64,000 nucleotides of DNA from Tribonema minus (taxonomy: Eukaryota > Sar > Xanthophyceae > Tribonematales > Tribonemataceae). The stretch covers positions 62,001-126,000 of the forward strand of contig JAFCMP010000085.1 of assembly GCA_017506865.1 (NCBI GenBank), given 5' to 3'. Every line of letters begins with the position of its first letter. Position 1 is the first letter of the stretch. Positions 1,213-63,932 of this stretch are shown in pieces. The position numbers and the translations under genes were made by a program. Under the pieces are notes generated by a model, which was not told the origin of the DNA, did not search any database, and saw only the letters and a list, made by a program, of their open reading frames with translations.

Positions 1213-4200
1213 GAAGACATGCAGCGGGAGCAGGCGAGCCTGCGGCAGCAAGGAGACACTAGGCCGCTGCTGCCACCGCAGGCACCTCAGGACTTGGGCA
1301 AGAAAACCCTGGTTTTGGACCTGGACGAGACGTTGGTGCACTGCAGCTTCGAGGTGAGGCACTGCTTTGAATCTACCTCTGCTGCCAGTTTAAAAAAAAA
1401 GCACAATTGTGGAGGTACCCACCAACATCTCTGGTTTGCAGTCAAATGAGCCTGCTTCAGCTCTCAAGCGGGCGGTCCTTTCTGTTGTATACATCATCAC
1501 CACTGTCAACAATTCAACTTTTGTCGCTGCCATGGGTGCATCGGCTGCTGTTGCAAGGCCATTTATGCTGGGGCCACATTCCTAAGCTGCGGAGGAGTTG
1601 CTACAAAAGCCACACTTTACAAAACACATATGAGTCAGCACAGCCGAACGGCACATGAGTTGAATCTGTGGAAATCTGTAGGCACCAGCCGTGTCGCTGC
1701 CCGGCCCAGCCGAATGAATGCCGCACATCAGCTGAACCTATCGACTTGAGATTTGTGAGAGACACCCTGCAGTGGACAGCTGTGGTGGCTGCTGGAGCAA
1801 CTCTGACGGCTGGGTATCGGAGCGACTCTGCGGCAGTGCTCGCACTCGGTGGACGGGAGTACATCAATGAACCTTTTGCTGCAATTTCTCCAGCAGCACC
1901 TCCCAATGGACATTGCTGTACGCGCCATGTTCACACTTCAACTTGCAAAACTTCAACATGTGTGCTGCGACCCCGCCGCGCTCCCCGCACGCAGCCCCTG
2001 CCTGGCGCGGAGTGCCTGCTGCCGGTAGTCTTGGACGGCGTGAGGTACACCCGCCATGTGCGCACTTCAACTTGCAAAGCTTCAACATTTGTGCTGCGAT
2101 GCCCCCCGCGCGCAGCCCCTGCCTGGCGCGGAGTGCCTGCTGCCGGTGGTCTTGGATGGCGTGACGTACACGGTGTACGCGTGCGTGCGGCCGGGGGCGA
2201 CGGAGCTGCTGCGGCGCCTCGGCCAGGTGTACGAGATCGCGGTGTACACGGCCAGGTGAGCGCAGCTGCTGCGTTCGTGTGTGTTATGACCTGTATAACT
2301 TTTAAAGTGACATTTGGTTAAGTTGACAAGAGGCGAGTCTGTAGTACGCGTGCGTGCGGTTGGGCGCGACAGAGCTGCTGAGGCGCCTTGGTCACGTGTA
2401 CGAGATCGTGGTGTACACGGCCAGGTGAGCGCTGCTGCCTTCATGTGGAATATGGTACGTTCCGAATGGATAGGAATGGCAGCCAAACGTAGTGAACGAC
2501 TCCACGCGCTACTGGCAGAATGGCTCATTGCGCGATAGCGGAGCTGAAGTGTGTGGTGAAGGTAGAATATGTTGAAGTTGACAGTTGGTTGAAGTTGACA
2601 TCAGATGCGTGCGGCCGGGCGCGACGGAGCTGCTGAGGCGCCTCAGCCAGGGGTCCGAGATTGTGGTGTACGCGGCCAGGTGAGCGCTGCTGCTGCGTTC
2701 ATGTGTATCACTATACGTCACGAATGTCGATAGGGGACCGGCAGCCAAACGTAGTGAACGACTCCACGAGTTGCTGGCAGAATGGCCTGCTCACCGCCCA
2801 TCAGCGGTGTTGAAAGGTGTGTGAGTGTAACTGCTTGTTGAAGTTGATATTTGGTTGAGTTTAACATGGCAAGAGGCGAATCTGTGGTACTTATGCGTGC
2901 GGCCGGGCACGACGGTGTTGCTGCGGCGCCTTGGCCAGATGTACGAGATCGTGGTGTACACAGCCAAGTGCGCGCTGCTTCTCTCGCGTACTGGCATACT
3001 CTGCACACCTCGATATTTCAAAGTACGTCTGGAACACGGCGATGTAGGTGCTGCTGCTTCCGCGTTGGCTGTATACTCTACTTTTGCTTTAAAGCGAGTG
3101 TATACTTGAAGTTGTTGTTGCAGTTCCCTTAGAGGTACTCGCGACAAACTGTTTTGTAGCTCAGGGGAGTGACCAGTTGGCCACGTCGTGATGGCCTCCC
3201 GCGCCGCAGCGCATGGCGTGCGCACATGCCACACAGAATGGCGCGGTGGAACGTCCCCAGCACCATAATCGATGCGCAAGAGGCGCGAGCGCATGTGCAA
3301 CGATGGGCAGAAGCGACGCAGGGCGTACGGCAATCCGCCAGTACCCAGTTCCGTACCGAGTCGCTGCGTGTGCGCAGAGACCGCGCGTACGGCGCGCTGC
3401 GCGCTCGCGCCGCCCTCCAGCACCAGTTGCAGTATCCAGACTTTGGACAAGTCTGGAGCTGCAGCCGCTGGCGCGACAGTGCATCGGAAGATTCGGCGCT
3501 CTGCTGCCGATACGACGCTGATCTGGCAGCGCTCACTGTGACTCAGCGCCCAGCTGCCAATTGAAAGCGCTCTTGAACTGCGCGTTCACGCCGCCCCTCA
3601 GCAGCGGCTGGTTGCTCGCTTTCAGGCTCAGAGCCGTAAGAGTCCCAGCGCTCAGCTGCCGACACGGCAGCGCTCAGTAAGAGGCAGCACTCGGCGGCTG
3701 ATGCGGCGCGGTGTTCAGCGCGAACCAGCGCCTCCGCCGCAGCAGGTGGTTCAGCAGCAATCGCCGTCATCAGTGCGACTCAGCGCTCAGCCGCGGATAC
3801 GGCAGTGCTCTGCGAGAAGTAGTGCTGCAGCGACCGGTACAGTAGTGATTGGTGAGAGTCAGCGCCCAGCAGCTGATACGGCAGTGCTCTGTGGGAGCCA
3901 GCGCATCGGCGGCCAACAGGGCTGCGGCGCGGCGTCGATACCAGCGGCGGCTGCCCGGCATTTGCACTCAAAGGTTGCGACGCTCTCTCTCGTGGCGTGC
4001 GTGCGTTCGCCGCCGCCTTTTGCGCGCACCTCCGTCTGCCTCAACACGCCGCTTGTCGTCGGCTGCAGTTGACTCTCACGCCGCGTCGCCATAGGCAGTC
4101 GACACGCGTGGAGCGTCACCGCTGCTGCAACTTCAACATAACCCAGAACTTGAACGTGACCCAAATCCTGACCTTCGCCGCGCCCTCGCCCCTTGTCTGC

Positions 4201-6717
4201 CTGCGCCATGCATTGCGCGCTCTCTCGCCGCCACGCTCGTGGCGCAGCCTGCGGTTGTATGCGCAGCAGTCGACACGCTCAAAGCGTCACCGCCGCTGCA
4301 ACTTCAACCACATGCCAACGTTGAACATGACCCGAATTCTGACCCTCGCCCTGCCATCGCCCCCTGCCTGCCTGCGCCGCGCATCGCTCGCGCTCTCTCC
4401 GCCGTGCTCGCGGCGCAGCCTGCGGTCGTACGCGGAGATTATGGTGCGCCACCTTGACTCAGGTGAGCGCGCCGGTGTTCGTTGGCGGGGCGCGTGTGCC
4501 GCTGCTTCCATGCCTGACCCACGCATGTAGGTGTGCCTGTGAGGGTGCGGGGTAGGGCTCGGTGCGACACACTGTGCTACCGCTGCCATGCCTGACGCTC
4601 CCGTATAGGTAGGTATGCCTGATAGAGTGAGGGTTTGGGGCTTGGTGCGACACACTGTGCTACCGCTGCCATGCCTGACGCACGCGTATAGGTGTGCTTG
4701 TCAGAGTGAGGGTTGGTGCTTGCTTCGACACTTTGCGCTACCGCTTCCATGCCTGAAGCACGCGCATTGGTGTGCTTGTTGGAGTAGGGGTCAGGGCTGG
4801 GAGCTCGGGTTGGGGGTAGAATGCTTGCACGTCCCCTGCAGCTTTTGCACTCGCTGGTGTGCACTACGGAATGCGCGGCAGGCGTGTTTGGCCTCCTGCA
4901 TAGCGCAGCGCCACCTTTGTTGCAGGGCGGGGCGGAGGTGACCGGCTTGTCGCATATCAGTGACCGTGCGGCTATCCTCGAACACTATAACTTCAAGTAG
5001 ATGTTTCTGAACGCGGCAAGGTGTCGAACAGCTGGATCTGCTGCAGTTGTCGCGGTACGTAGAGGAGGTTCCAGTGAAGGCATCGAGGTGATACCGCTGC
5101 TCTGCCAGGCTTGTTGCAAGCAAGCAAGTCACAGTACGCTTTGAGTAGAATTCGTGAGCACGGCTTGACACCGTCTGAAGCACCTCGCAACTGAACCTGC
5201 GACAGGGTCATACGACATTGCTGAACTGCAACTTTACCAGACAGCATCGTGCGGCACCTGCGGAGCCGCGACACGTGCTTCACACCCGCGCCCCTCGCAG
5301 CAACACTCTCCTCGTCCTGACAGTCTGCTGACCCCCCCCAATCCCCCCCTATCCCCGGCGCACTGCTGCGACGCAACCTCAACTTCAACAGACTGCGTCG
5401 TGCGGCATGTGGTGAGCCGCGACGCGTGCTTCGCATTTGAGCAGCAACCTACTCTCCTCGTACGGACAATTTGCTGACGTCCCCTTCCCCTCACACTGCT
5501 GCACCGCGCGCCCGCAACCTCAGCTTCAACAGACGGCGTCGTGCAGCACGTGCTGGCCGCGACATGCGCCTTGCATTCGAGCAGCAACACACTCTCCTCG
5601 TGTGGACAGTCCGCTGACCCCCCCTCTCCCCCGCCGCACTGCTGCGCCGCAACCTCAACTTCAACAGACGGCGTCGTGCGGCACGTGCTGAGCCGCGACG
5701 CGTGCTTCGCGCCGCGCGCGCGCGCGTCGCCGTTCGCGCCGCTCCTCGGCAGCAGCGGCGGCGGCAGCGGCGGCGTGCTCAAGGACGTCGCGCTGCTGCG
5801 GCGCTCGCTGAGCGATGTGGTGCTGGTGGACAACTCGCCCGCGAGTGCGTCGCCGCAGCCGCTCAACGCCGTCATCGTCGCGAGCTACCTCGGGCGCGCC
5901 GACGACGAGCTGCTGCGGTGAGTAATTGAACTTCAATGCTGAATTCTGTTTGTGCCAAGAGTTTAGATTGACATGCGTGATGTGGTGCGGGTGGACAGTC
6001 GCGTGCAAGCGCTGTGCCGCAGCTGCTCAATGCCATGTCGTCGCGAGCTACCGCGGGCGCGCCAACCACGAGCTGTGCGGTGAGACTCTGAATCTCAATG
6101 TTGAAGACTGTGTTTTCTTTATTATCGGCAAAGCTGATTGATTGACGAACGCAATGAGCTACCTCGGGCCCGCCGCCGACGAGCTACTGCGGTGAGAACC
6201 TGACCTTCGACACCCCAAAGAGTGTGTTGGCGATGCGTTTTGCCCATTGACGGGGGAGTGGCTGCATGCGGGAGGTCGGTCCCGTGGCAGCAACATGTCA
6301 CCGCAAGAGAACGGCGCCCCACATGGACCAACTTCCCCCCCCCCCGCCCCCCGGCTGCGCAGGCTCGTCCCCTTCCTGGAGTCGCTGAGCGCTGCCCCCG
6401 ACGTGCGCGCGTACGCCAAGGCGTGGCCCGCGTACCGCAAGCGCGCGCGCGCCCTCGACTCGCGCAAGCGCCGCCTCCCGCCCGCCGCCGCCGGCAGCAG
6501 CGGCGGCGGCGGCAGCGGCAGCGGCAGCAGCGGACTCATGCTCACCGGCGCCGCGTCGCTGCAGCGCGCATGGAGCCTGCTGCAGGGGAGCCCGCGCGGC
6601 AGCGGGGCGCCGAGCGCTGACGCCGCGATCGCAAACCCTGGCCCTAGCAGCGACGCTCACCCAGAGCAGATGGCGCCCTGCTCCACTCAGCCTATTTGCG
6701 CGACGGGTGGCGCATGA
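1213..6717 (+). CDS. CTD small phosphatase-like (NIF/FCP1, HAD superfamily) protein, 5 clear exons
   Basis: Exons I can join in phase: 1213-1353, 2116-2255, 4419-4462, 5668-5917 and 6363-6717 (TGA 6715-6717). From the first ATG (1219) this gives 307 aa. The HAD phosphatase signature is complete. The catalytic DxDxT motif reads DLDETLVHCS at about residues 32-41. Motif II is VYTAS, formed across the 2255/4419 splice. Motif III is VLVDNSPAS near residue 160. PVVLDG and RPGATELLRRLG match the SCP/Dullard core. These enzymes dephosphorylate serine/threonine, typically on the RNA polymerase II tail or on membrane-remodelling substrates; the substrate here is unknown. A Gly/Ser-rich insert lies between RDACF and VLKDV. 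The C-terminal exon adds a basic segment and a long Gly/Ser/Ala-rich tail of low complexity. A further upstream exon at 3-62 ends in CAGCAGCAG and would join in phase 0, so the true N-terminus may lie off the left edge. Confidence 0.88.
1927..2045 (+). repeat. Acceptor-side echo of phosphatase exon 2
   Basis: A partial copy of the start of exon 2 (CAG then CCCCTGCCTGGCGCGG...) with its upstream intron flank lies about 118 bp before the real exon at 2116. The copy keeps the AG and about 45 nt of coding-like sequence, then diverges. The flanks share TGCGCACTTCAACTTGCAAA-type sequence, so the unit was duplicated in tandem. Confidence 0.85.
2341..2970 (+). repeat. Three donor-side echoes of phosphatase exon 2
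   Basis: Copies of the 3' part of exon 2, from TGCGTGCGGCCGGG to the TACACGGCCAG/GTGAGC donor, occur at about 2341-2425, 2605-2682 and 2886-2970. Each is followed by intron-like sequence related to that after the true donor (GCGCTGCTGCxTTCATGTG). All three keep an open frame over the copied part (VRPGATELLRRL-like). The first two keep GTGAGC; the last has AAGTGCGC. They lack a usable acceptor of their own, so they look like duplicated exon ends and not cassette exons. Confidence 0.9.
3485..3965 (+). repeat. Degenerate CAGCGCTCAG-type tandem array in phosphatase intron 2
   Basis: About six diverged units of roughly 60-80 bp carry the core GACTCAGCGCYCAGC followed by GATACGGCAGYGCTCTG. They lie inside the intron between 2255 and 4419. 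The core contains the palindrome AGCGCT. No gene is visible here. Confidence 0.6.
4226..4275 (+). repeat. Acceptor-side echo of phosphatase exon 3
   Basis: CTCGTGGCGCAGCCTGCGGTTGTATGCG repeats the true acceptor and exon start CTCGCGGCGCAG/CCTGCGGTCGTACGCG at 4408-4433, about 170 bp upstream. The flanks (CACCGCYGCTGCAACTTCAAC, CTCGCCCC) are also repeated. Confidence 0.75.
4500..4800 (+). repeat. Tandem array, about 100-bp unit, three-plus copies
   Basis: Just after the donor of phosphatase exon 3, a unit of about 100 bp with CTACCGCTGCCATGCCTGAC and GGTGTGCYTGT is repeated at least three times with moderate divergence. It lies within the intron. Confidence 0.75.
5236..5640 (+). repeat. Three acceptor-side echoes of phosphatase exon 4
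   Basis: Copies of CAACAG/ACGGCGTCGTGCGGCACGTG, the acceptor and first codons of the exon at 5668, begin near 5243, 5389 and 5530. They have a period of about 140 bp. Each is followed by GAGCAGCAACNNACTCTCCTCGT-type sequence. All three keep an AG dinucleotide. Confidence 0.9.
5985..6196 (+). repeat. Two donor-side echoes of phosphatase exon 4
   Basis: Copies of the end of exon 4 (CGAGCTACCTCGGGCGCGCC...GAGCTGCTGCG/GTGAG) occur at about 5985-6081 and 6153-6196. Both end in a GTGAGA donor. The first also carries a degraded version of the VVLVDNSPAS-coding region further upstream. Confidence 0.88.
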
Positions 6718-8056: not shown

Positions 8057-11000
8057 ATGGGGATCTTCTCAAAGACACCCAAGGATGCATCTGCTGTAGA
8101 ACTGGGCACTGTGCAGAAGGTGGCGCCACTCAGCAGCCCCACCAACACCGACCCCGACATGATCCTTACGAAGGGCGTTGCTCGGCGGAGACGGCTTTTC
8201 TTAGACAAGTTTGACGATGCAGAAGAAGAGATCAAGAAGACTGGCGTTTGGAAGACTGCTTTCTTCCTAGTTCATACAATGATAGGCTCAGGCATCCTGT
8301 CCCAGCCCAAGGTGCGCTGTACAAAGTCGTCAAAGTCAAACTTGCCAATCCTCGCCAAATTCTTGATTTGTGGATCACAATTTGATCGCAGCGCGCGTTC
8401 GGACGATCGCGAGCCATTGTGGCCTGTATCTGTCTTCTGAGAGTGCCCCATAGCGAATCCGTCATGCCCAGAGTTGTCAATTGAGCTTGGCCTCTGCTGT
8501 GGCAATGACGCTGCATGTTGCTCTTCACTCGGAGACCCATCTCCGGTTGACGGCATGTCGCCTGCTGTGTGCAGCGGCAAGAGCTTCATGTGGTGTACTG
8601 ACGAAGGCAGTAAGATGCTGACACTAGAAATGCGCCTGTGCCATCGGTAGCACTGGTGCTGCTCGAGGAAGCATGGTGCATGTCTTGACCACATCAACAT
8701 TTACGTGTTCAACAAGAAGTTGTAGTATCATGAAGACGCTCTTCAGCTCAGCAGGGCACGCACATGTGCATTGATTGAATGATTGCTGGCGTAATTGCGC
8801 GTCTGGTTGCGCGCCTGCTGCCATAGTGTAAGACTGCACGCCATCAAGCTGACTGTCGTACTCAGTTTCGCCACCCCGGTTGACTGCGCACTCACACAGA
8901 GCATTGCAGCTGCACTAGTGTTATGCCGTCGTATTGAAGCTGCTGCAATGCAGTCGTACCGCCAACGCTGTAGTTAAATCACGCCGCGTGCAATGCAATG
9001 CGTTCAGTCGCGCAAGTGTCGCGTGGCTTTGGTGCTTGACGCAGAGGGCGGGTTGTCGCATGCTCCAGTGCACTCGTTGCAGCCTCGCTTGTCAAACAGT
9101 CTGCCTGCTACAACTTTTCAAGTCATGTGCACCCATCGGCTTCCAGCGAATCATAACATCAGTCCAGTATCATCTCAACAGGGCTCAGTTCTGTACTCAG
9201 TTCAGTATGCTATCCAGCGAATCATCGCACTGTCAGGCATCGTGAATACCGATACTCTGCAGATGAGTTCGGGCTGGTGGCCAACGGTCGCACTTTATCG
9301 AAGGCGCGACAAATGCAGGAATCGCTCTGCCTCGCAAGTCAGTCAACAAGTGGCCAGATAGCACGAGTGCAATGGCGCCGATGTAGCCTGCGCCGATACC
9401 CAATATACCATGGCTTGGATCGCAGCAACCGTTTCTGGAGGCTCTGGGTCCCCCATGCATTGAATTCCCTTCACTCCCTCAACAGCACTGTGGATGAATG
9501 CCCTGTGCATGTCCACCATGCATGGTGCCTTGAAGGCTCGCCAGCATATGACTGTAAAACCCTTTTTACTCCCCCACAGCACTCTGCATGCCCTATGCGT
9601 GTCGACCACGCAAGGTGCCTTGAGGGCTCGCCAGCACACGACTGCTGCCGCTCCACTCGCCGCGTTGACAGGTGCTCGCAGACACCTTGGAGGCTTCCCA
9701 GCACACGGTCACGACTGTCGCCTTTCCATTCTCCACTTTGACAGGTATTCATTCTCCGCGATGACAGGTTTTCAAAGACGCGTCAGAGGCCTGCCAGCAC
9801 ATGATTGTTGCCGCTCCATTTTCCTGTTGCGGCTCCACTCTCCGCGCTGACAGGTTTTCGCAGACGCCGGCATCGGCGCCACGACGTTCCTCTACATCGT
9901 CGCACTCTTGCTCATGTGGCTTGGTGGCGTGCTGCTGATCAAGACGGGGGAATACCTCAAGCTCGTCGGCGCCAAGCTCGACTACAATGCCGTCGCGTAC
10001 ATCACGCACGGTGAGCGCTGGCGCTAGGCGGACCACTAGCTCCTAGTGGTGGCCCCACTCGTAAATGTAGCCCTAGCCCTAGCTGTAGCGCTGCAACCCT
10101 GCCTAGTGCTGCAACTCTGCCTAGTGCCTGAAGCTCGTCGGCGCCAAGCTCGACTACAAAGCCGTCGCGTACATCACGCACGGTGAGCGCTGGTCCTAGC
10201 TGCAACCCTGACTGAAGGGCTGGCCACACTTGTAAATGTGGCCCTAGTCCTCAAGCCCTAGCTGTAGCCCTTAGGCCAACCCTTCTTAGTGCCTCAAGCT
10301 CGATAACATCGCCGTCGTGTACATTGTACGTGATGCACAGTGAGCGCTAGCCCCAGAGCTTGGGCAAGTGTCAATCACATTGAGCACTCGACTACAATGC
10401 CGCCGCGCGCATCATGCACACTGAGCCCCAACTTCAGGGTTCAGCGATGCCAATTGGTTTGAGCGAGCCTGCAGGGCGCCAAGCTTGACCACGGTGCCGC
10501 CGTGTACGATTAAACCTAGGTTTACGGCTTGGCAATTTGCCAACTGCTGCTTGATTCCATGGCTTTACATGCCTCAACATGAACCTTGTGCGCACGGCGC
10601 GTTTTCAGGATATGCCTCACAAGCACCTGCTCCCGCAGCACACATATACCAGGGGCATTGGTTGATATCGCACCATCGTAGGTGGCGCGTTCTCTGCAAA
10701 TGCTTCACGAGCACCATTCACATGCGACGCAAAACGGTCCAATGTCGGCGCTTCAAGTTCCCAGCTGTACGACAGCATTCATATGATACCTGTTGCCTGT
10801 TACCTAACAAATGCGCGTAATCCGCGCTGGTGGATGCGACTTTTGACCAACATCACTTTAAACTTCAACAATAAACTTCATCATCAGGAGCGTCATTCGA
10901 TACAGTACCCTGTATCGGATACGCCGCGTTGCAGGGCGCATCAGGGGCGTCACCGCGGACGTCAACATGGCGCTGCTCAACTTCTTCGCGGTAATCTCGT

Positions 11001-14000
11001 CGACCAAAATTACATTGAACTTCAATAATCAAACTTCAACAATTCAACCTTCAACAATGAACTTTCATCATCAGGACTGTGATATCGCCGCGCCGCAGGC
11101 CGCATCGGGGGCGTCACCGCGGACGTCAACATGGCGCTGCTCAACTTCTCCGCCGTCCTCTCGTACGTCCTGCTCATCGGCTCCATGACCAGCAGCCTCA
11201 TGCAGCGCTGGACCGACTCGGAGGCGTGGTACACGCAGGTGAGCGAGAGCGCGCTGCGCGCACGACCTGAGCGCTGCTGCGCAAGCGCGCAGTGCCCAAT
11301 GCAGGGGGGGGGGGGGGGGGGCTGCATAGCTCAGGCGGCGAGGGGGGGGGGGGGCTGAGCGCAGCAGCGCTCAACTTGAGGCGAGGGGGGGGGGGGGGGG
11401 AGCAGCGCTCAATTTGGGTGGAGGGGGGGGGGCTGCATCGCTGAAGCGTGATGCACGTGGCGCGGGGGGGGGGGGGAGGGGGGGGAGGGGGGCTGAACGC
11501 TGCTGCACATGCTCGCAGTCTTCAGCCGCAGGGATCGCCTGCTGGCCGCCAGTGCCGCGCCGTCGCGCAGAGCAGCGGAGCGTTACGCTCCGCACTGATG
11601 ACGCCTGCGGTCCCGCGTCGGCATGGCCGCACATGCGCGCACCGCACGCGTCCCGTGGAAGGCAACGCCGTGAGGTGAATGCGCCAGTCAGCAGCGCTCA
11701 GCTCATTTGACGCCTCGCGCCGGTCGACACCGGCCCTGGGTTCGAGCCACTGCGTCAGCTGTCGCCGGCCGCGCCACTGCTTTCGAGGCTGCGGGAAGCT
11801 CGCTGGAACGGGCGCGCTGCGAGAGGCTTTCATCTCAGCCGGCGGCGCTCGTGCGCAGCTGCTCTTTTGCGGTGCCCGCTCACGCGCGTTGGCGATGCCG
11901 CGCCGCTCGATGACGTCCTCAGTCGTCTGGTTTCGTGTCGCCGTCGCCGCTTCGCTCCGCACGCCCGCACGCATTCGCCACACCGCTGAGACCGTCCAGT
12001 CCGCCTCCATGGGCTCACACCGCAGCGCTCTTTACCGAGCGGCATCGCCGTGCAAAAGCGTGCTTCATGCAGCAAGGGCCGCGCCGCCCCCCCCTTTTCT
12101 CCCCTGCCCCCTTCCCCCCCCCCCCCCCCCCCCCCCCCCCCTCAGGAGTACTTCACGTGCCCCATCATGCGTAACCACTATATGCAGAAATGCAGAAATA
12201 GCCATGCCGACCCCCTCTCCCCCCCCCCCCCCCTTCTTCCCCCCCTCAGGAGTACTTCACGTGCCCCATCATGGTGCTCATCTTCATCTTCCCGCCGACG
12301 CTCGTCAAGCACATGACTGAGATCTACTGGCTCGCGTACGTCGGCCTGGGCTCCGTGCTCATCGTCATGGCGCTCACCTTCCGCGAGGCCGGGGTGGTAA
12401 GACTAAAACGGAGTATCAATTGACTACTGTGGATATGATGGCACTGTTTGACTCGTGGCCAATGACTGCAACAGCGGCGACCACGGTTATTGGTGGAAGA
12501 GGCTTGCGGCTAACCAGTCCTTGTCACCTAGAGCTCTACGATCTTGCGATTGGTTCCCATAAATTGTTGAAATGTTAATGCCCGCCCTGCTGCCTGCCTC
12601 CATGCCTGCAAGGGGCAGCAGTTCTGTTGCAGCAGCTGTCCGCTGTGTTCGGGCCTTCTGGCTCGCGAGGGCCATGTTGTGAGCTGTCACGCGTAAGAGT
12701 GACACACAGGGAGGTGTTGACCTTCTGACAGCGATGAGGCATCCGCGAGGTTGCGGTGGCAAGACGCGTTGCAAGCGGTAAACTGGCCTCAACTGCAACC
12801 TCCTCTGCAACTCTTGATTTGAGAGACAATGCTCCTTGCGGCAACCTCAACCTTAAACTCTTGATTTGAGAGGCGCGGACGAGTCGTTGAAGTGGTGGGT
12901 GATGCTGCTCAAGCATACATGCCCTAGAATGCTCAGAGGCTCTCATTGATACCCATACCCTTCGTTCAAAAGGCCCCTAGAATACTCTCACGGATACCCG
13001 TACCCCCCCCCCCCCCCCCCCCCCCGCCTTTTCACAGGGCCCCCCTGCATCCGTCGCGGACGAGTCGTTGAAGTGGTGGGACACGGAGATGCTCTTCAAG
13101 AAGTCGGGGAGCGTCATCTTCTCCCTCATGTTCGGCTGCGCGGTGAGAGCGTCGCAAAAGCAATCAAAACTTTCAGTATTCTACTGCGATCGTTGATTCG
13201 ATTCCATGTAGGTCTCCACACTTTAGGTCTTGGGGTTAGCCCACCCCCTTTCCCAGTCACTCATGCGGGATGCGTAGACACATCTGCTGCCCCCGGTGTG
13301 TCACGATGTGCCTGGCCTCTCCAGATTCTCGGCGCCACCGCTGAGCCTTGGCGAGAGTATTGAGCCTACAGAGCACTAATTGATGATCGGTACAAGAGCG
13401 GTACTCGTTGCTGAGCGACAGCGCCGCCTGGCTATTCCCACTCAGCTGTGCGTTGCGCAGCTGTTGACGATTCGGAGATGTGAACATGAGTCGCGCTTGC
13501 TGGCAGGTCTCAAGCACGCTCACGCAACAACCATGCGCTTCATGAGCTTGTCTGGCAAATGCGATACGACGCGCGGTCGACACGCTTTTGACGTACTGCC
13601 ACTCTATCTACTCATTCTCACCACCACGTGCTTTTATACTATTTTGAAGCGTGTGCAGAAGTATGCATACAGCGGGCTGCTCCTGCGCACCGTCGGCACA
13701 ATTTCCTGTCCATCACCACTAGAGCGATGTGGTTACTAACTTCAACCCCACATTGGTTGACTACCAGCACAATGCGCTGCCGCCACTACGTCTAACGCCC
13801 TGCTGCTGCGCGCCGCCGCCCGCAGGCGCTGCACGCGTACGCAGGCCTGCTGCCGCGCAGCGTGCCCGCCTGGAGCAAGTCCACCGCCATCGCGCTGATC
13901 ACGGGCGGCGTCATGTGCTACACGACCGGCATCGTGGGGTACTGGACCTTCCGGTGGGTATGTAGGCATGCGCTGCTTCCAAGCACTACGTATCAAAGCA

Positions 14001-17000
14001 TCGGGGAATTGCATTGAGGGCTATTTTGAAGCAATATTGCGACCGTATCTGGCGCGTGCACTGAGGGTCACGTGGGTGGCACGCATTGCTCTAAAGCGCA
14101 GTTGTGACCACATCAGGCACCAACACGGAGTGTGCGTTGTTCCGAAGCGCAGCTGTAACCGTATCCGGCGCTTGCACAGAGCGTGGCTGCTCCAAATCAC
14201 CAAGTGTTAAAGCATCTGGCGCTTGCACTGAGGGTGAAGGCTCCATATCCAATTTTTTTTTCTGTGGTGTCGCAAGCGATTCAGACCGTGCCTGGCGGCG
14301 CTGTGCGCAACGTTGCGGGCATCGTGAGGTACTGGAGCTTACGGCGGGAGGCGCGTCAATGACATCACACTGGTTCAGGAGGTGGCCCTTCAGGCACCTG
14401 TACAGTCTGTTCAAGCTGTAAGCCTTGCTTCACTGACGCTCGCTGCGGGGGGGTTGTTGGGGACATCAGCGCCTTGAAGTGTGCCTGAAGGGCTTGAGGT
14501 ACGGCACATTGAGTTGTTGTGGTTGAGGGCGGCATCTGTTGCCCATGAGATGGACAAACCTAGTGCAATGCACTACATACATTCCTGGCACGCCGGGCCC
14601 GCTTTGCGAGGGTGCTCGACAGACGTTTTGAACTATATGATCAGCTGTGCGCATGTGGCTTGATGAGCTGCACTATGGGCTACTGTGGCACATGGCGACC
14701 TGGCGATTGCGCTGGACGACCCTGAAGATTGGCCTGCTATGGCTACATTGCCAGCCCCCTCATATGTACCACCACTGCTGCTGTTCAACAAGCTGAAGTG
14801 TGATCTCAGCCAAGCACGTGCGGAGCATGTACTACACCATAAACATGTACTACTTCGAGTCATTATTCTGGTGCACTCTTCGCTGTGAATGGTGGCAATT
14901 TCGTAGACTATGTGAGGAGCGGCAAGGCCATTTCTGGAATGCAGGCCTTTGGTAAGTTGTCTGCTTCTTGAAAGAACACTATATACCTGTGAGAGCTTTC
15001 ACAAACTGCTACTCCGCGTGTGAAGATCGTCAAGCAGCATAACATACTATGTAGTACTTACAGGTACCAATTACGTGAGCTGTCCCCAACTGCTGCTCCG
15101 CGTGTGTGAGGATCCTACAAAAAGGCAGCAGATATCAATTATCTGGGCTGCCGCAAACTGCTGCTGCGCGCATGAAAATCTGCAAGGCAGCAGCTCGGCT
15201 CACCAACGTCCTTGGCGGTATTCGTTGTTGACCTTGCCAGATCTGAGACGGAGGGAAACATCATCTACAACTTCACGGGCTGGGCCAAGACGTTCTCTGA
15301 GGTCCTGCTGGTGAGTGCGATGCCGCGTCACTTCAAGTGCCGCTTCAAGTGCTGAGGCCTCTTGAAGTTCACACCCGCGCTGCGCGTTGCCGCTCGCAGA
15401 TCGGCGGCAGCGCTCGTGACCAAACCGGGGTAGCTTAAGATGCCCCCGAGGGGGTGCTGCATCTGATGTTTTGCGAAGAGCGCACGCTGTCGCCCCCCCC
15501 CCCCCCCCCCCCCCCCGGCCCCCGCCGGCCCCCGCAATTTTCCCCCGTTGCGTAGAGCGGCGGCGGCGGTGGCGCTTGCGGTCATGTGCATGTACGCGCG
15601 TGCTGAGAAGTGCACTCGATCAGCACTGCGCGGCACGCTCGCGTCTGTGTGCAGTGCAAAGTGTGCATGCAGACATGCCAATAAGGTCCTTGTGCGGCGC
15701 TCAAGATAGCCGTGTCATGGCTGGAAGCGCGTGTCTGAATAGAGTGTCCGCGTGCGGCGACGTGCCAACACCGCTCCGCAGGGGGAGGCAGTGGCGCGCC
15801 CTCTTTGCAGAGCATGCGCGGGTACGCTCCAATCATGGTTCAACGTGGCACAACGCACCTTGTTGCCTGCGCAAATGGCTGCAGTTTTGAGGTTACCCTG
15901 ATGCTGAGCGTTGACCCCAGTTCTGAACCAGTCACTGACACGTAACCGTGATTTCTGCCGGCCCCTCCCCCCCCCCCCCCCCCCCCCCCCTTTTCTGACA
16001 GGTTGTCCACCTGTGCTTCTACACCCCTCTAGAGTTTGTGATCATGCGGCACAGCATCGTACAGGTACGCTTTCCGCCATGGTATGTAGCTGCCGATAAG
16101 CTGGGAGCCTGCATGACTATGAATCTTAGATTTTGTCAGTATTGCATCACTGCGCCCGTGCCACATGATGCTATTCAACTGGCGCTTGGGACGCAAGAAG
16201 CGAGGTCAGCAACAATTCCTATTAGAGGAGCTGATGTAATATGCCACAACTAACCAGTATATGGAGCAGAGACGCAGTGCACAGTGCTCAACTACGTTCA
16301 TGTCACCCCTATACAGCGCCTCCCCCGTGCTCTTCAAAGCACACACCTCGCGTGATGCGCCTCTGCGAGACTCTGCAAGCACGATGGCGTCCTTCAGTCC
16401 ACACATAATAAGTATTTGATGACATCTTCCTCTTGTTAGTTGATGGGGATTAGAGCTACTGTATGGTTAACGCTGCTGTTGCGGCCGCCGCCGCCACCTT
16501 TCAACAAGCGCCGGCTTTTCTGGTGCTCTGCCGCTGCTTGCCTGCAAAGCCTGAGACCGAGCCTGTCCCCTCACCACGCGAAACCTACTCCCGTGCCAGG
16601 TCTTCTCTCAGGTTGCTTCTCATGTTCTTCGTCGCTCGCGTCATTAAAATTTATATCAGATAATCAGATGCAAGCACTGCTTGCCTGCAAAGCCTGAGAC
16701 CGAGCCTGTCCCCTCACCACGCGAAACCTACTCCCGTGCCAGGTCTTCTCTCAGGTTGCTTCTCATGTTCTTCGTCGCTCGCGTCATTGAAATTTATATC
16801 AGATAATCAGATGCAAGCACAGATTGAGAGGAGGGATGGAGCGTAACCACTTGAACCCACCACTTCCCCCCCCCCGCAGCTCGTGGGGAAGGAGCCCCTC
16901 AAGCTCTCGCGCGTCGTCGTCGTCCTCCTCTCGGCCGTGCTGCTGGCGCTGCTGGTCGGCTTCGTGCTGCTGCTGGACCTCACGGGCATGTCGGACGGCG

Positions 17001-18245
17001 ACGCGTACGCGCTCATCCTAGACGTTTCCGGCAGCATCCTCGGCTCCATGGTGTCCTTCATACTCCCCGGGTTCCTGTACTACAGGTGCGCGCGCGCGGG
17101 GCAGCTCTATGCAATCGGTGCCACACGGCAAGTCCCTACGTACTTCCATGGTAGCAGTGGGGTACCCTATGGATACACTTGCGTTGCCTTTCAGACACCA
17201 CCATAGGAGGTACACCGTATCAGGCAGCGTTGTGGGCTCTACGGTATCCTTCATACTCCCCGGGTTCCTGTACTGCAGGTGCGCGCATGGGGCAGCTTTG
17301 CGTGTTGCACGCCACCGTCCTTTCCGGGTTTCTGAACTACAGGTGTGTGCACAGGGCAATTTTGCGTGTTGTACGCCACAGTCTTGTCCGGAACTCTAAA
17401 CTGAAAGTGCGTGCATGGGGCAGCTTTGCGTGATGTACGCCGCAAACCCACTCTGAAGATGCACTGGCATTGAAATTCGAACCCACACAGGAGGTGTTTG
17501 GCAGCGTCCTTAAGCCCATGGTAGTGTTCATGCAGCCAGGGTCCCTGGTGTGCGCACAGGGGGCTTTGTGCAGCCTGACGCCACACGGCAGCGTCGCACG
17601 TGCTGCCGGTACCGTAGGGATGCACTTGCAGTACCTTTTGGACCACGGACGCAGCAGGTACCCAGCAGCGTCCTCAGCGGCGCCGTCGCGCGCTGTTCAA
17701 CCCACTGTACCCCTGCATGCGCGCACGCCCTTCGCGCCGCGCCGCCGCCGCCTGCCCTGCAGTGTTCGGAAATGTTGGTGGTCAATGACACCGACTATAC
17801 CGACTACACGCGCGTCATGCGCCGTACCATCTGCCTTGCGCCGCTGGCGCCTCACTCGTTCAATCCACTCCGCCACGGTCCTGTACACACATGACGAACG
17901 CAACCTGCGCCTGCGCCGGCTGCTTTTTCAACAATATGTTTGACTAGTGCGGCAGCGGCGACCACGGTCAACGGTGGATTGGTGGCTGACCACACCTTGT
18001 CACCTAGAGCTCTACGAACTTGTTGTTCGTTTTCATGAATGAGAATCTCTGATTTCTGCAGGGCCCAGTCCTTGGAGCTCTATAGACTTTGGTTCATTTT
18101 CATTGATGTGATTTTGTGATTTCTCCTCTTCTGCAGGGTCCAGTCCAAGGGCGCCTGGTCCATCCTCGCCATCATCACGGCGCTGGCCGGCATCGGCATC
18201 GCCATCTCGGGCACCATCACCATCAGCATGGACGTGTACGGCTGA
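8057..18245 (+). CDS. Amino acid/auxin permease (AAAP)-family transporter, 10 exons, complete
   Basis: Exons: 8057-8311, 9854-10010, 11099-11238, 12250-12396, 13038-13142, 13826-13953, 15241-15310, 16002-16064, 16880-17085 and 18137-18245 (TGA). All phases agree and give 459 aa, normal for the family. After a hydrophilic, acidic N-terminus the first membrane segment reads AFFLVHTMIGSGILSQP, the GxG-type unwound helix 1 of APC-fold carriers. About ten further hydrophobic segments follow: FLYIVALLLMWLGGVLLI, LLNFSAVLSYVLLIGSM, MVLIFIFPPTLV, SVLIVMAL, VIFSLMFGCA, AIALITGGVMC, VVHLCFYTPLEFVIMR, RVVVVLLSAVLLALLVGFVL, FILPGFLYY and ILAIITALAGIGIAI. It probably carries neutral amino acids by proton coupling at the plasma or vacuolar membrane; the substrate is not decidable. 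The ATG at 8057 starts MGIFSKTPKD. Several introns contain echoes of their flanking exon ends. Confidence 0.92.
9480..9790 (+). repeat. Intronic tandem repeats and acceptor-side echoes before transporter exon 2
   Basis: A unit with GTCxACCAYGCAxGGTGCCTTGAxGGCTCGCCAGCA is repeated near 9515 and 9600. Copies of the exon 2 acceptor (TGACAGGTNTTCGCAGAC-like) then occur near 9667, 9740 and 9768, before the real acceptor at 9851-9853. Confidence 0.75.
10127..10512 (+). repeat. Donor-side echoes of transporter exon 2, graded decay
   Basis: The end of exon 2 with its donor (CTCAAGCTCGTCGGCGCC...ATCACGCACG/GTGAGCGCTGG, 9957-10020) is repeated almost perfectly at 10130-10192. It appears in progressively eroded form near 10290-10345, 10380-10425 and 10477-10512. 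The erosion increases with distance from the real exon, as expected for an age series. Confidence 0.9.
10924..11008 (+). repeat. Acceptor-side echo of transporter exon 3
   Basis: GCAGGGCGCATCAGGGGCGTCACCGC and the following MALLNF-coding sequence repeat the start of exon 3 (11099), 170 bp upstream. The copied frame diverges after LLNFFAV. Confidence 0.88.
11300..11495 (+). repeat. Cluster of long G-runs in transporter intron 3
   Basis: At least five G-homopolymer runs of 10-18 nt lie shortly downstream of the exon 3 donor (11238). Matching C-runs sit before the next acceptor at about 12110-12141 and 12219-12246. They are separated by short AGCAGCGCTCAA-type spacers. Confidence 0.85.
12143..12175 (+). 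repeat. Acceptor-side echo of transporter exon 4
   Basis: A poly-C tract followed by TCAG/GAGTACTTCACGTGCCCCATCATG repeats the true acceptor and first nine codons of exon 4 (12250), 106 bp upstream. The copy is perfect over the coding part and then diverges. Confidence 0.9.
12470..12560 (+). repeat. Dispersed repeat 'CTAGAGCTCTACGA', copy 1
   Basis: CAGCGGCGACCACGGT...CTTGTCACCTAGAGCTCTACGATCTTG matches copies at 17945-18045 and 23850-23905. It lies in transporter intron 4. Confidence 0.8.
12860..12912 (+). repeat. Acceptor-side echo of transporter exon 5
   Basis: GCGCGGACGAGTCGTTGAAGTGGTGGG repeats codons 7-15 of exon 5 (13056-13080) nearly exactly. Related flanks (CCTAGAATRCTC, GATACCCRTACCC) recur too, giving a unit of about 190 bp. 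Confidence 0.85.
14300..14350 (+). repeat. Donor-side echo of transporter exon 6
   Basis: GGGCATCGTGAGGTACTGGAGCTTACGGCGGG is a degraded copy of the exon 6 end GGCATCGTGGGGTACTGGACCTTCCG/GTGGG (13927-13957). The region between (14040-14260) holds diverged repeats of GCGCTTGCACTGAGGGT. Confidence 0.75.
16536..16817 (+). repeat. Near-perfect 143-bp tandem duplication in transporter intron 8
   Basis: Units start at 16536 and 16679 with GCTTGCCTGCAAAGCCTGAG and run to CAGATAATCAGATGCAAGCA. I see one clear mismatch (ATTAAAATTT against ATTGAAATTT), so this is much younger than the exon echoes. Confidence 0.93.
17220..17560 (+). repeat. Series of donor-side echoes of transporter exon 9
   Basis: The exon 9 end (TCCTTCATACTCCCCGGGTTCCTGTACTACAG/GTGCGC, 17055-17090) recurs nearly intact at 17238-17284. 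Shorter, more degraded copies end near 17341, 17406 and 17550. The post-donor motif GCxTGGGGCAGCTTTGCG recurs with them. Confidence 0.88.
17945..18110 (+). repeat. Dispersed repeat copy 2 plus acceptor-side echo of transporter exon 10
   Basis: GCGGCGACCACGGTCAACGG and CTTGTCACCTAGAGCTCTACGA match the repeat at 12470. It runs into TTCTGCAG/GGCCCAGTCC, an echo of the real exon 10 acceptor TTCTGCAG/GGTCCAGTCC at 18130-18146. The echo is itself followed by GGAGCTCTATAGACTTTGGTTCATTTTCAT, a second partial copy of the dispersed repeat. Confidence 0.82.
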
Positions 18246-35861: not shown

Positions 35862-35921
<60 letters not shown>

Positions 35922-43726: not shown

Positions 43727-43757
<31 letters not shown>

Positions 43758-45350
43758 TGCAGGTACCTCATGAAGAGCGACGACGACACCGTGGTGTGCC
43801 TCAACAAGGTCGCCAAGCGCATGGCCGTGCTGCCCCCGGCCGTGCAGGACAGGGTATATGCGGGCGTGCCGACCGCGTGCGGCCTCGAGGCGCACAGCGA
43901 CAGTGGCCGCATCATTCGCGACCCCACGCACAAGTGGCACGACGCCAAGTTCGTCGCGCACACGCTCGGCGGCCTCGACTGCTACCCGGCGTACCACCAG
44001 GTGAACAGCTGCTGCTGCAGCCCTCGGCGCTGACATGTTTGGGCCCAAGGCTGTTGTTGTTCAAGTCCAACTTTGTGGCGCACACGCTCGGCGGCCTCGA
44101 CTGCTACCTGGCGCACCACCAGGTGAGGAAGTGCTGCTGCTGCTGCTGCTGCGCTCGCCGCCAGCACTTTTGCGCCCAGCGGCAGCGCGGTCTAAGAGGC
44201 GGGGCATGCGGGCAGTCTTTGCTCGAGTTGAAATTGGCTGTGCACAACAGCCTCGACAAATACCCGGCGTACCACCAGGTGAGAGGGGCGCTCATGCTGC
44301 TGCGCTCGGCGCTAGCAGTTGAAGCTGGCATGCACGCTGTCCATGTTGAAGTTAGTGGCGCACACGCGGCCTCGACTGCTTCCTGACGTACCACCAGGTG
44401 AGGGAGGGGCGCTGCTGCTGCTGCTGCGCTCGCCGCCAGTACTTTTGGGCCCAGCGGCAGCGCGGCGTAAGAGGCGGGGCATGCGGGCAACCTTTGCTCA
44501 AGTTGAAGTTTGCAGTGCTTACAGCCTCGACTGCTACCCGGCGTACCACCAGGTGAGAGTGGCGCTGCTGCTGCTGCAGCGCTCAGCGCTTGCAGTGGAA
44601 GCTAGGCATGCGCGCTGCGATGTTCAAGTTGAAGTCTGCAGCGCACTTGCCCAGGTTGCCTTGCCTGCTTCCTGCCTGACCTATGGTGACGCTTGCAAGA
44701 CAGTACGTGGCATTCATCATCTCTAAGATCATGATCGGCTGACGCTGCCACTAGCAGTTTGTCAGTCGCCCAGCTTCAACGCCAGAGTTTGTACTCCGCC
44801 CAATGCCGGCAGACGGGTACAACCGATGCGCTCAGCTCCTCCAGACCGCATTTAATCAACAATTCACAACCCTTCAAGTACCAATACTTGACTAAAAGCA
44901 GAATGCCTAAAGCTTTCAAGCATAGCCACAAACTGTCAACTTGGTGCAACACCGCCAGTCAAGGCCAGGACGGGCTCGTGCCGGCTGCCAAGCAGCCGCC
45001 TCACGCACTTCGGCTACTCACTGCAAGCTATTCTAACCCCCCCCCCCCCCCCCCTCCCCCCTGCCGCACAGGGCGCCTTCTACCTCCTCTCGCAGCCGCT
45101 CGTCGCGCACCTGCACCGCGGGCGCGCGCAGCTCGTCGCCTTTGCCAACGAGGACGTCACCGTCGGCGCGTGGATGATGGCGCTCAACCGCGAGATGGTC
45201 GCGCTCGGCTCGCTGAGCGCCGCGCACCTGTGGGACTGCACGTGCGCGACGCCCACCAAGTGGCTGCGCTACGACCCCAACGTCTTCCACCACAACTGCA
45301 AGGCGCTCGCGCAGCTGCAGGCGTGCGCGGCGAACCTGCCCGCGTGCTGA
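41450..45350 (+). CDS. GT31-family (beta-1,3-galactosyltransferase-like) type II membrane protein, 4 exons
   Basis: Exons: 41450-41947, 43159-43304, 43763-44000 and 45072-45350 (TGA), giving 386 aa with consistent phases. There is one membrane anchor near residues 42-59 (SCLLSAMAVLLLLAAAV) and a lumenal catalytic domain, the usual Golgi type II layout. GT31 landmarks are in order: KREQLRTSYSAY (R..LR.TW region), GYRNIVLKTKAML (YRNLTLKT), KYLMKSDDDTVV (DxD metal site, about residues 221-223), RIIRDPTHKW, LDCYPAYHQ (YP.Y.xG region, with the Gly next across the intron) and NEDVTVGAWMMALN (EDV motif near 321). It probably adds Gal or GlcNAc in beta-1,3 linkage to glycoproteins or polysaccharides, using a UDP-sugar and Mn. 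It ends in a Cys-rich stretch. The start could also be the internal ATG eight codons in. Confidence 0.92.
43469..43757 (+). repeat. Paired G-run and C-run in GT31 intron 2
   Basis: A run of about 26 G (43469-43494) follows T-rich TTTTTTTT. A run of about 28 C (43730-43757) lies directly before the CTGCAG acceptor. They are complementary and could form a long stem that loops out 235 nt of intron and brings the splice sites together. Confidence 0.85.
44066..44700 (+). repeat. Four or more donor-side echoes of GT31 exon 3
   Basis: The exon 3 end (GTCGCGCACACGCTCGGCGGCCTCGACTGC...TACCACCAG/GTGA) recurs with donors near 44122, 44280, 44398 and 44553. The first is the most complete. Each donor is followed by a GCGCTGCTGCTGCTG-type stretch, and most units contain GTTGAAGTT. 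A fifth, much eroded piece may lie at 44620-44700. Confidence 0.93.
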
Positions 45351-58430: not shown

Positions 58431-58439
58431 GAAGTTGAG

Positions 58440-58601: not shown

Positions 58602-58607
58602 GTAGAA

Positions 58608-58898: not shown

Positions 58899-58964
58899 TT
58901 GGCATCTAGCTGTAAGGAATCTACATGTCGTATGACAGTCTGAAAGTGTCGCAACGACAACCAC

Positions 58965-59919: not shown

Positions 59920-60191
59920 CGAAGGAGTGACAGAGCACTGACACGTATGTCTGAAAACCATGTTGAGCTTGCGCACCCGGCGCAGGGGAATGGTGAATGA
60001 CACGCGTCCTAGACCCCGGCTATGCCCAGAAGCCATGCTGAATTCGCGCCCCTGACGCGAAAGAATGGTGAACGGTATACGCGCTAGCCCAGACCAGACC
60101 AGAAACTCAGGCTGTGATGCGACAGAACTAGTTTGTCTTGCTAAAATTAAGTGTAATGCCGGCCAGACGGCCCGCGCAAGGCGGCCCTTTC

Positions 60192-60203
60192 AAAAAAGAG
60201 GGG
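60192..60203 (+). promoter_or_regulatory. Polypurine tract
   Basis: AAAAAAGAGGGG lies immediately before the TG of the 3' LTR. This is the expected plus-strand primer site for reverse transcription. Confidence 0.9.
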
Positions 60204-60577
60204 TGATGCAAGCTCTCTGTTTTCTGTGCTAGTTCAGTACAGAGCACCAGGGGAGTCGTTCTAGAACCGGACCAATCCGTTCTTCAACTTCAAGTCCTGG
60301 CCAGCACTAGAGGACAGGGCTCTTTTTGCTCACACTGGATTCTGGCCCTGGGCAAGAGAGACATCCTGCTGGGAGAGAGCAAGCTTTCTGGCTGAGCCAT
60401 ATCAGTGGCTTCTCATCCATGTCCACAGAGGTGTGTCTCATTTCTCTTGTCTCATTTCTCTTGTCTCTTGCTTTGCTAATGTTTGTCCAGCAAGTTGAGC
60501 TGCTCCTTGATCTTGCCAGCAGCACTACAGCCCATCTGCCTTTGGCAGCATGGAAGCCAGGCCGTTTTGCTGTATCA
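60204..60577 (+). repeat. 3' LTR
   Basis: Starts TGATGCAAGCTCTCTGTTTT and ends GCCGTTTTGCTGTATCA. It matches 49582-49951 with a few substitutions and indels. Confidence 0.92.
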
Positions 60578-61958: not shown

Positions 61959-63932
61959 CCTCTTCGGGGGCCAATCCCGCGATGCGCATGTCCTCCAGCA
62001 GCTGCAGCGCTGTCTGCCAGCGGCCGCTCTTCTCGCACGCGTCGATGGCCACGCTGCAGACGCACAGAGAAGGAGCAGCCGCATCATCATATCTATACCA
62101 TGTGTACACCTCTCAAGTACTCAAATTGTGCATGTGCAACAGCAGTACCATGTATGTCGCAATGCAGCTGATTGCAGCGACAGCAAGGCGCCGGCGTTAG
62201 CACAGGACATCGGGCTGTCAGCGGCCATGCTGCGGCACGCAGAGGCGGAGCAGCCGCGTCGTCATGTATTTTGAAGCGCTGCAACAATTGCACCACCAAC
62301 TGCAACAACACTGTACACTTTGCAACACAGCAAACACGGCAACAGCAAAGGCGCCGGTATCAGCACATCTCAACGGGCTGTCAATGGGCACGCTGCGGCT
62401 CACAGAGAAGGGGCAGCCCAACATCACGTACTTCAAAATACACCTCTACACTTCAGGTGTATACATGAAGCAGTGTTGTACATGCAGCAACACATCAAAC
62501 ACAGCAACAGTAAGGCCCGAGCAACAGTAAGAGTTCGCGCTGACGATCAGCCGGCACACATGCACTCAGCTCGCATGCGTCCATTGCCTCGCTGTGGCGC
62601 TCGCCAAAGGGGTGGCATAGGCGACGGCAGCATGTGAAAAGTTGCTACATGCGGCGATCGCGACACATGGAAAGCAACGGTGTGGTGGCGGTACTGATAC
62701 GACCTGTTGAGCTGACATGTGGGTGGGGGCACGGAACACCATATATTAGACTGAACTTGGGGTCGGGTTTCATTCAGCCGGAGAAAGCGCATACGTGCTG
62801 CAGTGTTGCCTGCGGCGTATGCATGTACACAATTTGGAAGCGCGTGTACAAATTATGCTGGAAGCATTCTCTGTATATCGTGTGTACAAATCTGCTGGAT
62901 AGAGTGTTGTTTGGGGTGTACGTATGTATGTACCTGTACGCAGTGTTGTCCGGGGTGATGCCGGTGTCGCGCATCTCGTGCAGCAGCTCCAATGCGCGCT
63001 CGTACTGCCCGCCCTGCAAGTGCGCCGCATGCAGAGAGACATCGCGCGAGAGGCCGCCTTCAGCACCGCGCCACGCACAAGTGTGGTACACCAATCGGCT
63101 GGCGAGATGCACACCCTTGCTGGGTGTGAGATTTCAACTGATGCATCATCAAGTTCACGTTGCCCGCACGCTGACGGCAGGGCCGCTCCTGGTGGCAGCA
63201 TCGAGAGCACCCCGCGCGAGCGGCAATTACAAGGACGGCGAGCAACACGAGCGGGTGCCGTCAGCGCCGCGCAAACAAACATGCGCCATCAGCTGCGGAT
63301 ATGCACGCCGCCGTCACGATACGCTGCAGTGTAGAGCACCATCATCTCCTTGTCGCCCAGTCGCTGGTGGCGGGGCTTCTTCTGCTGGCAGCACTGCGGC
63401 AGCTCGCGCACTCGGGCATGTGCCATTACGCAGCGCGAAGCATGAGCAGCACAAAATGTGGCGCGCGCTCAGCGCTGCGCACGATCCGTAGGGCTGCAGC
63501 GCAGAGCTGGCATGCTGCGCGGCGTTCAACGTGTCCGCCCGCTGACAAAACGATTAAAATGCATAAACTTGGGCTAGCGACGGTCGAGGGTGGATGGAAG
63601 TGGCCACGTTCATTGTGCTGTCCAACGCATCCGCCCGCTTCTGACATATAAACTGAATATTTGTAAGTCGCATGCACTTGGCTAGCAATAGTGAAGAGTG
63701 GCTTGTAGAGATCGTGCTCCTCACGGCTGGCGTCATCCCCCGCTGCTGTCGCCCGTGCGAATGGGTTCTTGGTGTAGAGGTCGGGTGTGAGATTTCGTAG
63801 CCCAGCACTGCCATGCAGACTCAGACTCGGACTCACCTTGCTGCACGCGCTCATGGCCGTCGTGTACGTGTAGAGGTTGGGCGTGAGCCCGTCCTTCCGC
63901 GCCTCCTCCAGCAGCTGCAGCGGCACGCACAC
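61959..63932 (-). CDS. Pentatricopeptide repeat (PPR) protein, three exons, partial at both ends
   Basis: Gene-sense exons: about 63932-63837 (5' boundary unsure), 63013-62934 and 62053-61959, with phases 0, 2 and 1 at the donors. Each holds one repeat: LLEEARKDGLTPNLYTYTTA (then MSACSK), GQYERALELLHEMRDTGITP (then DNTAY) and, across the splice, VAIDACEKSGRWQTALQLLE (then DMRIAGLAP). This is the 35-residue helical-hairpin pattern of P-class PPR proteins, which bind single-stranded RNA in plastids or mitochondria for editing, splicing or stability. In this exon layout each exon carries about one repeat. The gene runs off the right edge, so the targeting peptide is not seen, and its 3' end was not found. 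Confidence 0.8.
62170..62420 (-). repeat. Two acceptor-side echoes of PPR exon 3
   Basis: Plus-orientation CAGCGGCCATGCTGCGGCACGCAGAGGCGGAGCAGCCG (62219) and CAATGGGCACGCTGCGGCTCACAGAGAAGGGGCAGCCC (62382) are eroded copies of 62028-62080 (exon start, acceptor and flank). A related flank (CAACAGxAAGGCxCCGG) recurs too. Confidence 0.82.

Follow-up and report, generated by a model that had tools for sequence, protein, structure and literature searches.

Exon sequence can be duplicated beside itself within a gene, as in tandem exon duplication and mutually exclusive exons, and staggered breaks or paired nicks yield short direct tandem duplications with a unit of tens to hundreds of base pairs. 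Three further systems, given here as excerpts of the papers describe them, are intron gain by tandem genomic duplication of an AGGT-bearing exon segment (PMC3443670, citing Hellsten et al. 2011 and Gao and Lynch 2009); novel intron positions in Drosophila, 5 of 31 of which came about by tandem duplication and were located in exons (PMC2891723, which also cites 1,901 duplications in natural Drosophila lines, with a median of 367 nt and 624 including some exonic sequence); and introners, elements that copy themselves into many genes, with a genome-scale gain of intron sequence (PMC9860276). Here, we describe splice-junction echoes in the yellow-green alga Tribonema minus, studied in a 64-kb window (the whole stretch of DNA shown above, part of a 158-Mb assembly) and in further loci: copies of an exon's edge, together with its splice site and adjoining intron sequence, that lie inside the neighboring intron. 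The echoes are direct repeats that straddle the junction, are directed into the intron, and decay near-neutrally, and one transcript-derived protein skips them. The observation is real and genome-wide in the sample. We found no description of such echoes, in this or another genome, among the titles and abstract openings that searches of the open PMC literature listed. On balance, they are best read as old, short (100- to 270-bp) within-gene tandem duplications that were kept where the mRNA was unchanged, a reading that we hold to be somewhat probable.

Frequency and specificity of the echoes

The sample comprised the window and loci L001 to L020, and junction tests covered the window and 19 of these loci (L001 to L013 and L015 to L020). 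Genes were modeled with a self-training hidden Markov model (HMM) gene finder, whose initial splice consensus and codon bias we chose manually on reading positions 1800 to 6300 of the window and which was run without any coordinates from a preliminary description of the window. On the window and L001 to L014, the gene finder gave donors AG/GTGAG (the slash marks the splice site), acceptors GCAG, and a third-position GC content of 87%; on the window and all of L001 to L020, it predicted 34 genes with 256 exons and 222 introns. Because it also predicted small exons at some echo copies (for example, at 26074-26091, at 44066-44122, and at four copies within 38720-39163), the tests were limited to exons scoring at least 12, with an exon length of at least 45, a gene total score of at least 25, and a flank of at least 500 nt. 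Junctions outside these rules were dropped, including some sites listed in the preliminary description (e.g., 25750). The main junction query of 40+20 nt was compared with 1 kb of the intron side, and a score of 44 was the cutoff for an echo.

At this cutoff, intron-side echoes were present at 59 of 219 junctions (16/57 in the window, 26/107 in L001 to L013, and 17/55 in L015 to L020). The last six loci were fetched after the first test, and as the gene finder was retrained with them, they form only a partial hold-out. At least one echo was carried by 4 of 5 genes in the window, 12 of 19 in L001 to L013, and 6 of 9 in L015 to L020; an earlier run with laxer exons had given 45/193 junctions at the same score. 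On the exon side, echoes were found in only 8/212 cases (P = 4.5 × 10−12 by a Fisher test), and controls with the reverse complement and with one foreign stretch per junction yielded 1/219 each. Near repeats were direct in 161 cases and inverted in 1 after low-complexity filtering (unfiltered, in the window and L001 to L014, 259 and 18, summed by hand). Chance similarity is excluded by the foreign, reverse-complement, and exon-side controls. With exon-end 50-mers and a cutoff of 42, echoes were commonest in introns of 900 to 1,500 nt (38% of donors and 57% of acceptors in 21 introns), compared with 15% of donors and no acceptors in 20 introns of 200 to 500 nt. Besides junction-straddling duplications, intron-only ones also occur.

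The preliminary description had listed 25 splice sites in the window as echoed. The HMM gene finder placed exon ends at all 25; each of these sites carries GT or AG, and each matches its own intron side above all of 400 foreign 1-kb stretches with the 40+20-nt query. Three of these sites were weak, namely, 18137 (score 31), 35168 (score 28; with a 70+20-nt query, 15/400 foreign stretches reach its score), and 62053 (score 38). The one to six copies originally reported were recovered at 22 junctions (60+20-nt query, cutoff 40), with one to three copies at 20 of them, four at one, and six at one; the three weak sites had none. The copies had been called confined to the intron next to the original, and comparison with nonadjacent sequence had been proposed; they are essentially so confined, judging from the foreign and reverse-complement controls above, and with 30 foreign introns per junction, 5/193 junctions had at least one match at a score of 44. 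The suggestion of a genome-wide phenomenon was borne out within the sample, in 43/162 junctions of the 19 further loci, the later batch included. That most splice sites are echoed was an overstatement, the proportion being about a quarter both in the window and overall.

Anatomy and decay of the copies

The copies were characterized in 51 original-copy pairs chosen by a score of at least 50, in which the offset of the copy had a median of 177 (quartiles, 145 and 266). Identity was 0.908 in the exon parts (2,924 nt) and 0.772 in the intron parts (3,840 nt), with 0.010 and 0.044 indel events per site, respectively, and exon-part mismatches amounted to 7.1, 7.7, and 13.0% at codon positions 1, 2, and 3. 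When pairs were picked by intron sequence alone, 26 of 42 matches straddled the junction, and these differed by 7.3% at exon positions 1 and 2, 15.1% at position 3, and 16.4% in the intron; the values for 36 pairs picked by exon sequence alone were 6.7, 12.7, and 20.2%. Coding positions therefore reflect drift in the copy alone, and the remaining positions reflect drift in both original and copy. Young copies are rare, since only 3/219 junctions score at least 100.

In 44/51 copies, the splice-site score is within 2 units of the real one (a hand count that takes the best position within 6 nt, which favors the copies), and of the 45 matches in the earlier run, the alignment crossed the junction in 42, and GT or AG was retained in 39. 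The others have AT, GC, or AA, and where the copy has GC, so does the predicted real donor. The whole exon is covered in 3/51 pairs, the other 48 copying part of the exon only, and 9/51 copies carry a net frameshift. Whole mini-exons and zero-length recursive sites were considered and rejected, as inspection of the copy edges by eye revealed no regular flanking by the opposite splice site. At L008 7406-7682, a 99-nt exon-edge copy is 98% identical to its original, with 79 nt of unmatched sequence between them; this is not a plain head-to-tail duplication, and the gene finder called part of the second copy an exon.

The echo-bearing exons of the window, and one duplication without an exon, are as follows.

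2116..2255, +, exon of NIF-type phosphatase gene; acceptor copy 1980-2050; donor copies 2366-2438, 2621-2699, 2910-2982 (gene finder, Pfam NIF)
4419..4462, +, short, weakly scored exon; acceptor copy 4228-4266 (gene finder)
5668..5917, +, exon; acceptor copies 5229-5291, 5372-5434, 5513-5563; donor copies 6022-6099, 6156-6208 (gene finder)
9854..10010, +, exon of amino-acid transporter gene; acceptor copies 9652-9686, 9750-9781; donor copies 10127-10199, 10387-10426 (Pfam Aa_trans)
11099..11238, +, exon; acceptor copy 10918-10992 (gene finder)
12250..12396, +, exon; acceptor copy 12135-12169 (gene finder)
13038..13142, +, exon; acceptor-side copy 12874-12899, exon sequence only (gene finder)
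13826..13953, +, exon; donor copy 14318-14348 (gene finder)
16534..16826, +, intron-only tandem duplication, without exon; 143-bp offset, 150-bp match, 98% identical, the highest identity among the window's long tandem duplications
16880..17085, +, exon; donor copy 17220-17296 (gene finder)
24841..24914, +, exon; weak acceptor copy 24698-24736 (supported by transcript-derived protein P0001)
25670..25750, +, exon; donor copies 25823-25889, 26034-26111, both skipped by P0001
26996..27252, +, exon; donor copies 27318-27359, 27409-27439, 27487-27531 (supported by P0001)
33044..33190, −, exon; acceptor copy 33357-33426; donor copy 32858-32902 (gene finder)
34434..34534, −, exon; donor copy 34275-34342 (gene finder)
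36564..36644, −, exon; acceptor copy 36809-36869 (gene finder)
37466..37524, −, exon; donor copy 37351-37400 (gene finder)
38405..38594, −, exon with six acceptor-side copies, 38715-38769, 38838-38901, 38985-39037, 39104-39182, 39285-39340, 39412-39465, four of them called small exons by the gene finder
43763..44000, +, exon of galactosyltransferase gene; donor copies 44067-44140, 44250-44282, 44349-44401, 44524-44579 (Pfam Galactosyl_T)

The exon at 2116..2255 has echo scores of 95 (acceptor) and 85 (donor), and the three copies at its donor have identities of 0.90, 0.90, and 0.86. Among the copies at donor 44000, the highest identity (0.98) belongs to the farthest one, and the earlier impression that copies often erode with distance is, by eye, not supported. 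It had also been proposed that echoing is a route of intron growth that provides ready-made cryptic sites. This much is plausible, given the near-real splice-site scores of the copies and the abundance of echoes in 900- to 1,500-nt introns; the data do not extend to a habit of echoing directed at splice sites themselves.

Pfam matches in the window comprise the NIF phosphatase, the amino-acid transporter (Aa_trans), the galactosyltransferase (Galactosyl_T), and a PPR protein; no homologue of the amino-acid transporter was found at an E value of 0.001 among 7,999 candidates scored. The PPR-repeat gene (58965-64000, −) contributes no junction to the 51 pairs, and its listed site, 62053, is one of the three weak ones mentioned above. 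Two neighboring paralogues lie on opposite strands (23252-29356, +, and 32290-38594, −); the first has no Pfam match, and of the 19 proteins that a search with it returned, 9 are annotated in T. minus. Open frames at 54956-58060 (+) match reverse transcriptase (22.9 bits, under the Pfam cutoff), RNase H, and an integrase zinc-binding domain and presumably belong to a Ty3/gypsy-like retrotransposon, and no near direct repeats are listed between about 45.1 and 62.0 kb of the window. Long open frames with FNIP repeat matches occur at 21322-22902 (+) and 46894-47565 (−).

Splicing of the copies and annotated proteins

P0001, a transcript-derived protein from EukProt, matches the window at 92 to 99% in six of its seven exon pieces; the piece at 24841 matches at 72%, with an alignment running past the exon start. 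The protein joins 24841-24914, 25670-25750, and later exons, skipping the copies at 25808-25891 and 26030-26092.

The pieces of the annotated protein JKP88DRAFT_306743 map to 41762-45347 of the window. At junction 44000, this protein contains a 52-amino-acid insert made of the first two echo copies and the intron sequence before the second, and the insert is absent from 5/5 aligned homologues. It appears to be a misannotation of intron echoes as coding sequence, not real use, and echoes built into a public T. minus protein in this way would be a practical cost of the phenomenon. Among 27 proteins returned, internal repeats were found in 4/12 annotated T. minus proteins (P0006, P0008, P0016, and P0020, only the last of which was traced to DNA), in 0/7 EukProt proteins, and in 0/8 others. 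P0008 and P0016 have four internal near-repeats each, which at the protein level resemble echoes translated as exons.

Origin of the echoes and comparison with known systems

We propose that many sites within genes have undergone direct tandem duplication of short segments, with offsets mostly of 100 to 270 bp, possibly through fill-in of staggered breaks or paired nicks or through replication slippage. A duplication wholly within an exon would alter the protein and be removed by selection. Where a duplication straddles a splice junction, the outer, exon-attached site would stay in use, and the other copy would become intron; with the exon keeping its copy nearly fixed and the intron copy drifting, the event would remain recognizable as an echo of the exon edge and its splice site. 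Partial exon copies have one splice site only and may be ignored when exons are recognized as units, and the copies are apparently tolerated because splicing removes them.

We then asked how special the junction is. At a cutoff of 44, intron interiors match in 243/2,744 cases per side, compared with the 59/219 junctions, an excess that is partly expected because exon sequence decays more slowly, keeping exon-end echoes visible for longer. When intron 60-mers are scored on any side (cutoff 38), 17 to 20% are duplicated at 30 to 90 nt from the junction, 20 to 26% at 90 to 700 nt, and 11% beyond 700 nt; by this measure, near-junction intron is no more duplicated than intron at 90 to 700 nt. In introns of 200 to 1,500 nt (cutoff 42), 22.8% of exon-end 50-mers (n = 127) and 15.1% of intron 50-mers (n = 1,734) are echoed, and with exons scoring at least 20, the values are 25.3 and 14.3%. 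As a null, we simulated uniform duplication with indels in ten settings, leaving out composition, intron mobile elements, and model errors, which gave intron self-echo of 8.8 to 47%. Uniform duplication without calibrated indels was discarded, its simulations mostly giving more intron self-echo, relative to exon ends, than observed. Raising indels toward the observed rate narrows this gap, which the settings that fit the exon-end scores leave unclosed; settings with older events match the exon/intron ratio but give too few high exon-end scores. Under these models, exon ends look roughly 1.5- to 2-fold richer in echoes than the decay-calibrated uniform null, and junction targeting is at most weak.

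Several results weigh against a history of plain within-gene duplication. The two settings that best fit the exon-end scores predict intron self-echo of 33% and 29%, compared with the 15.1% observed, and on the intron side alone (cutoff 38), the first 60 nt of the intron match in 42/217 cases versus 308/2,744 interiors, about 1.7 times as often. The exonic reach of the 51 copies, which is mostly 25 to 75 nt (quartiles, 44, 56, and 67 nt), exceeds 75 nt in 6/51 and 100 nt in 3/51, versus 38 to 58% and 18 to 41%, respectively, in four uniform-breakpoint simulations run through the same pipeline; either larger copies are spliced in and purged or breakpoints are clustered near exon edges. Of 26 pairs that are at least 89% alike, 22 have more than 40 nt between the copies (some are not nearest neighbors in their array); of the remaining four pairs, two show overlaps of 7 and 3 nt in their BLAST coordinates, and the copies of the other two are separated by 7 and 10 nt. 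When exon sequence alone was the query, 15 of 51 matches were not junction-straddling. Predicted intergenic stretches are little duplicated locally (57/1,877 at a cutoff of 38), perhaps due to unmasked mobile elements. Finally, 888 aligned codons in the copies contain no in-frame stop, where 3.6 to 4.2 would be expected from re-placing the same changes (P = 0.014 and 0.006).

Some of these points would be explained if exon edges primed a process that repeatedly copies about 60 nt of exon (roughly 25 to 75 nt), along with neighboring intron sequence, into the intron next to it, driven, for instance, by exon chromatin or by transcription stalled at splice sites. The tightly limited exonic reach is the strongest point for such a junction-linked process, and the residual exon-end excess, the surplus in the first 60 nt of the intron, and the occurrence of as many as six copies at one junction are consistent with it. 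The short reach could also reflect selection against copies large enough for splicing in as exons, however; any-side intron duplication is flat from 30 to 700 nt off the junction, and duplications of a similar kind occur within introns alone, among them the long duplication with the highest identity in the window. We therefore regard junction-anchored copying as unlikely; if it is real, introns would expand in a way that also produces strong decoy splice sites.

It is less likely still that some echoes are working alternative exons or splice sites and that the array is a functional splicing feature. The near-real splice-site scores, the stop-free codons, the annotated use of two copies at 44000, and a shortage of nonsynonymous codons (107 among the 888, versus expectations of 124 with the codon position kept and 148 with any position allowed) would fit such a role, the coding-trace signal being weak and uncorrected for multiple tests. 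The net frameshifts, the divergence of exon positions 1 and 2 at about the single-lineage neutral rate, the homologues that lack the 52-amino-acid insert, the skipping of copies by P0001, and the scarcity of whole-exon copies argue against it. An assembly artifact is very improbable: its only support is that a later paper, as excerpted, left T. minus out of a gene-cluster analysis for insufficient assembly quality (PMC12459048), whereas original and copy diverge by some 10%, with mismatches biased by codon position, and echoes are present in loci on many contigs. Hardly any weight falls on an introner-like or other dispersed element carrying splice sites; some short sequences do recur at a distance in the window (48 far direct matches), but the content of the echoes is gene-specific exon sequence, and the foreign control is nearly empty.

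If within-gene tandem duplication is the correct reading, these introns grow by local duplication with the exon as a slow clock, coding positions giving one-copy drift and intron flanks giving two-copy drift. Because strong-looking decoy splice sites have been tolerated at roughly one in four scored junctions, this alga allows a direct test of how exons are recognized.

As in the excerpted AGGT model, the event in T. minus would be a short tandem duplication of genic DNA that is harmless as splicing removes the extra copy, and direct tandem duplication is indeed what we found (161 direct near repeats versus 1 inverted, and pairs straddling the junction). In that model, the duplicated exon segment creates a new intron, whereas in T. 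minus, at about a quarter of the scored junctions, the duplicated segment holds a junction already present, and the copy is added to an intron that was already there. The novel introns of Drosophila, as excerpted, likewise consist of tandem copies of coding sequence turned into intron, but they arose in exons, not as copies inside existing introns. Unlike the duplicates in tandem exon duplication and mutually exclusive exons, the T. minus copies are partial in 48/51 pairs, with whole exons in 3/51. With introners, as excerpted, the echoes share a genome-scale gain of intron sequence; they differ in being local and gene-specific, and homologous introns at many unrelated loci were not seen (1/219 with one foreign stretch and 5/193 with 30 foreign introns, for echo sequence only). 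Minisatellite arrays consist of many near-identical head-to-tail units; at the 25 listed junctions, the number of copies at a cutoff of 40 ranged from none to six and was one to three at 20 of them. Duplications from staggered breaks or paired nicks, in which two adjacent copies should meet bluntly or with short homology, share the direct orientation and the unit of tens to hundreds of base pairs, the T. minus copies being mostly old.

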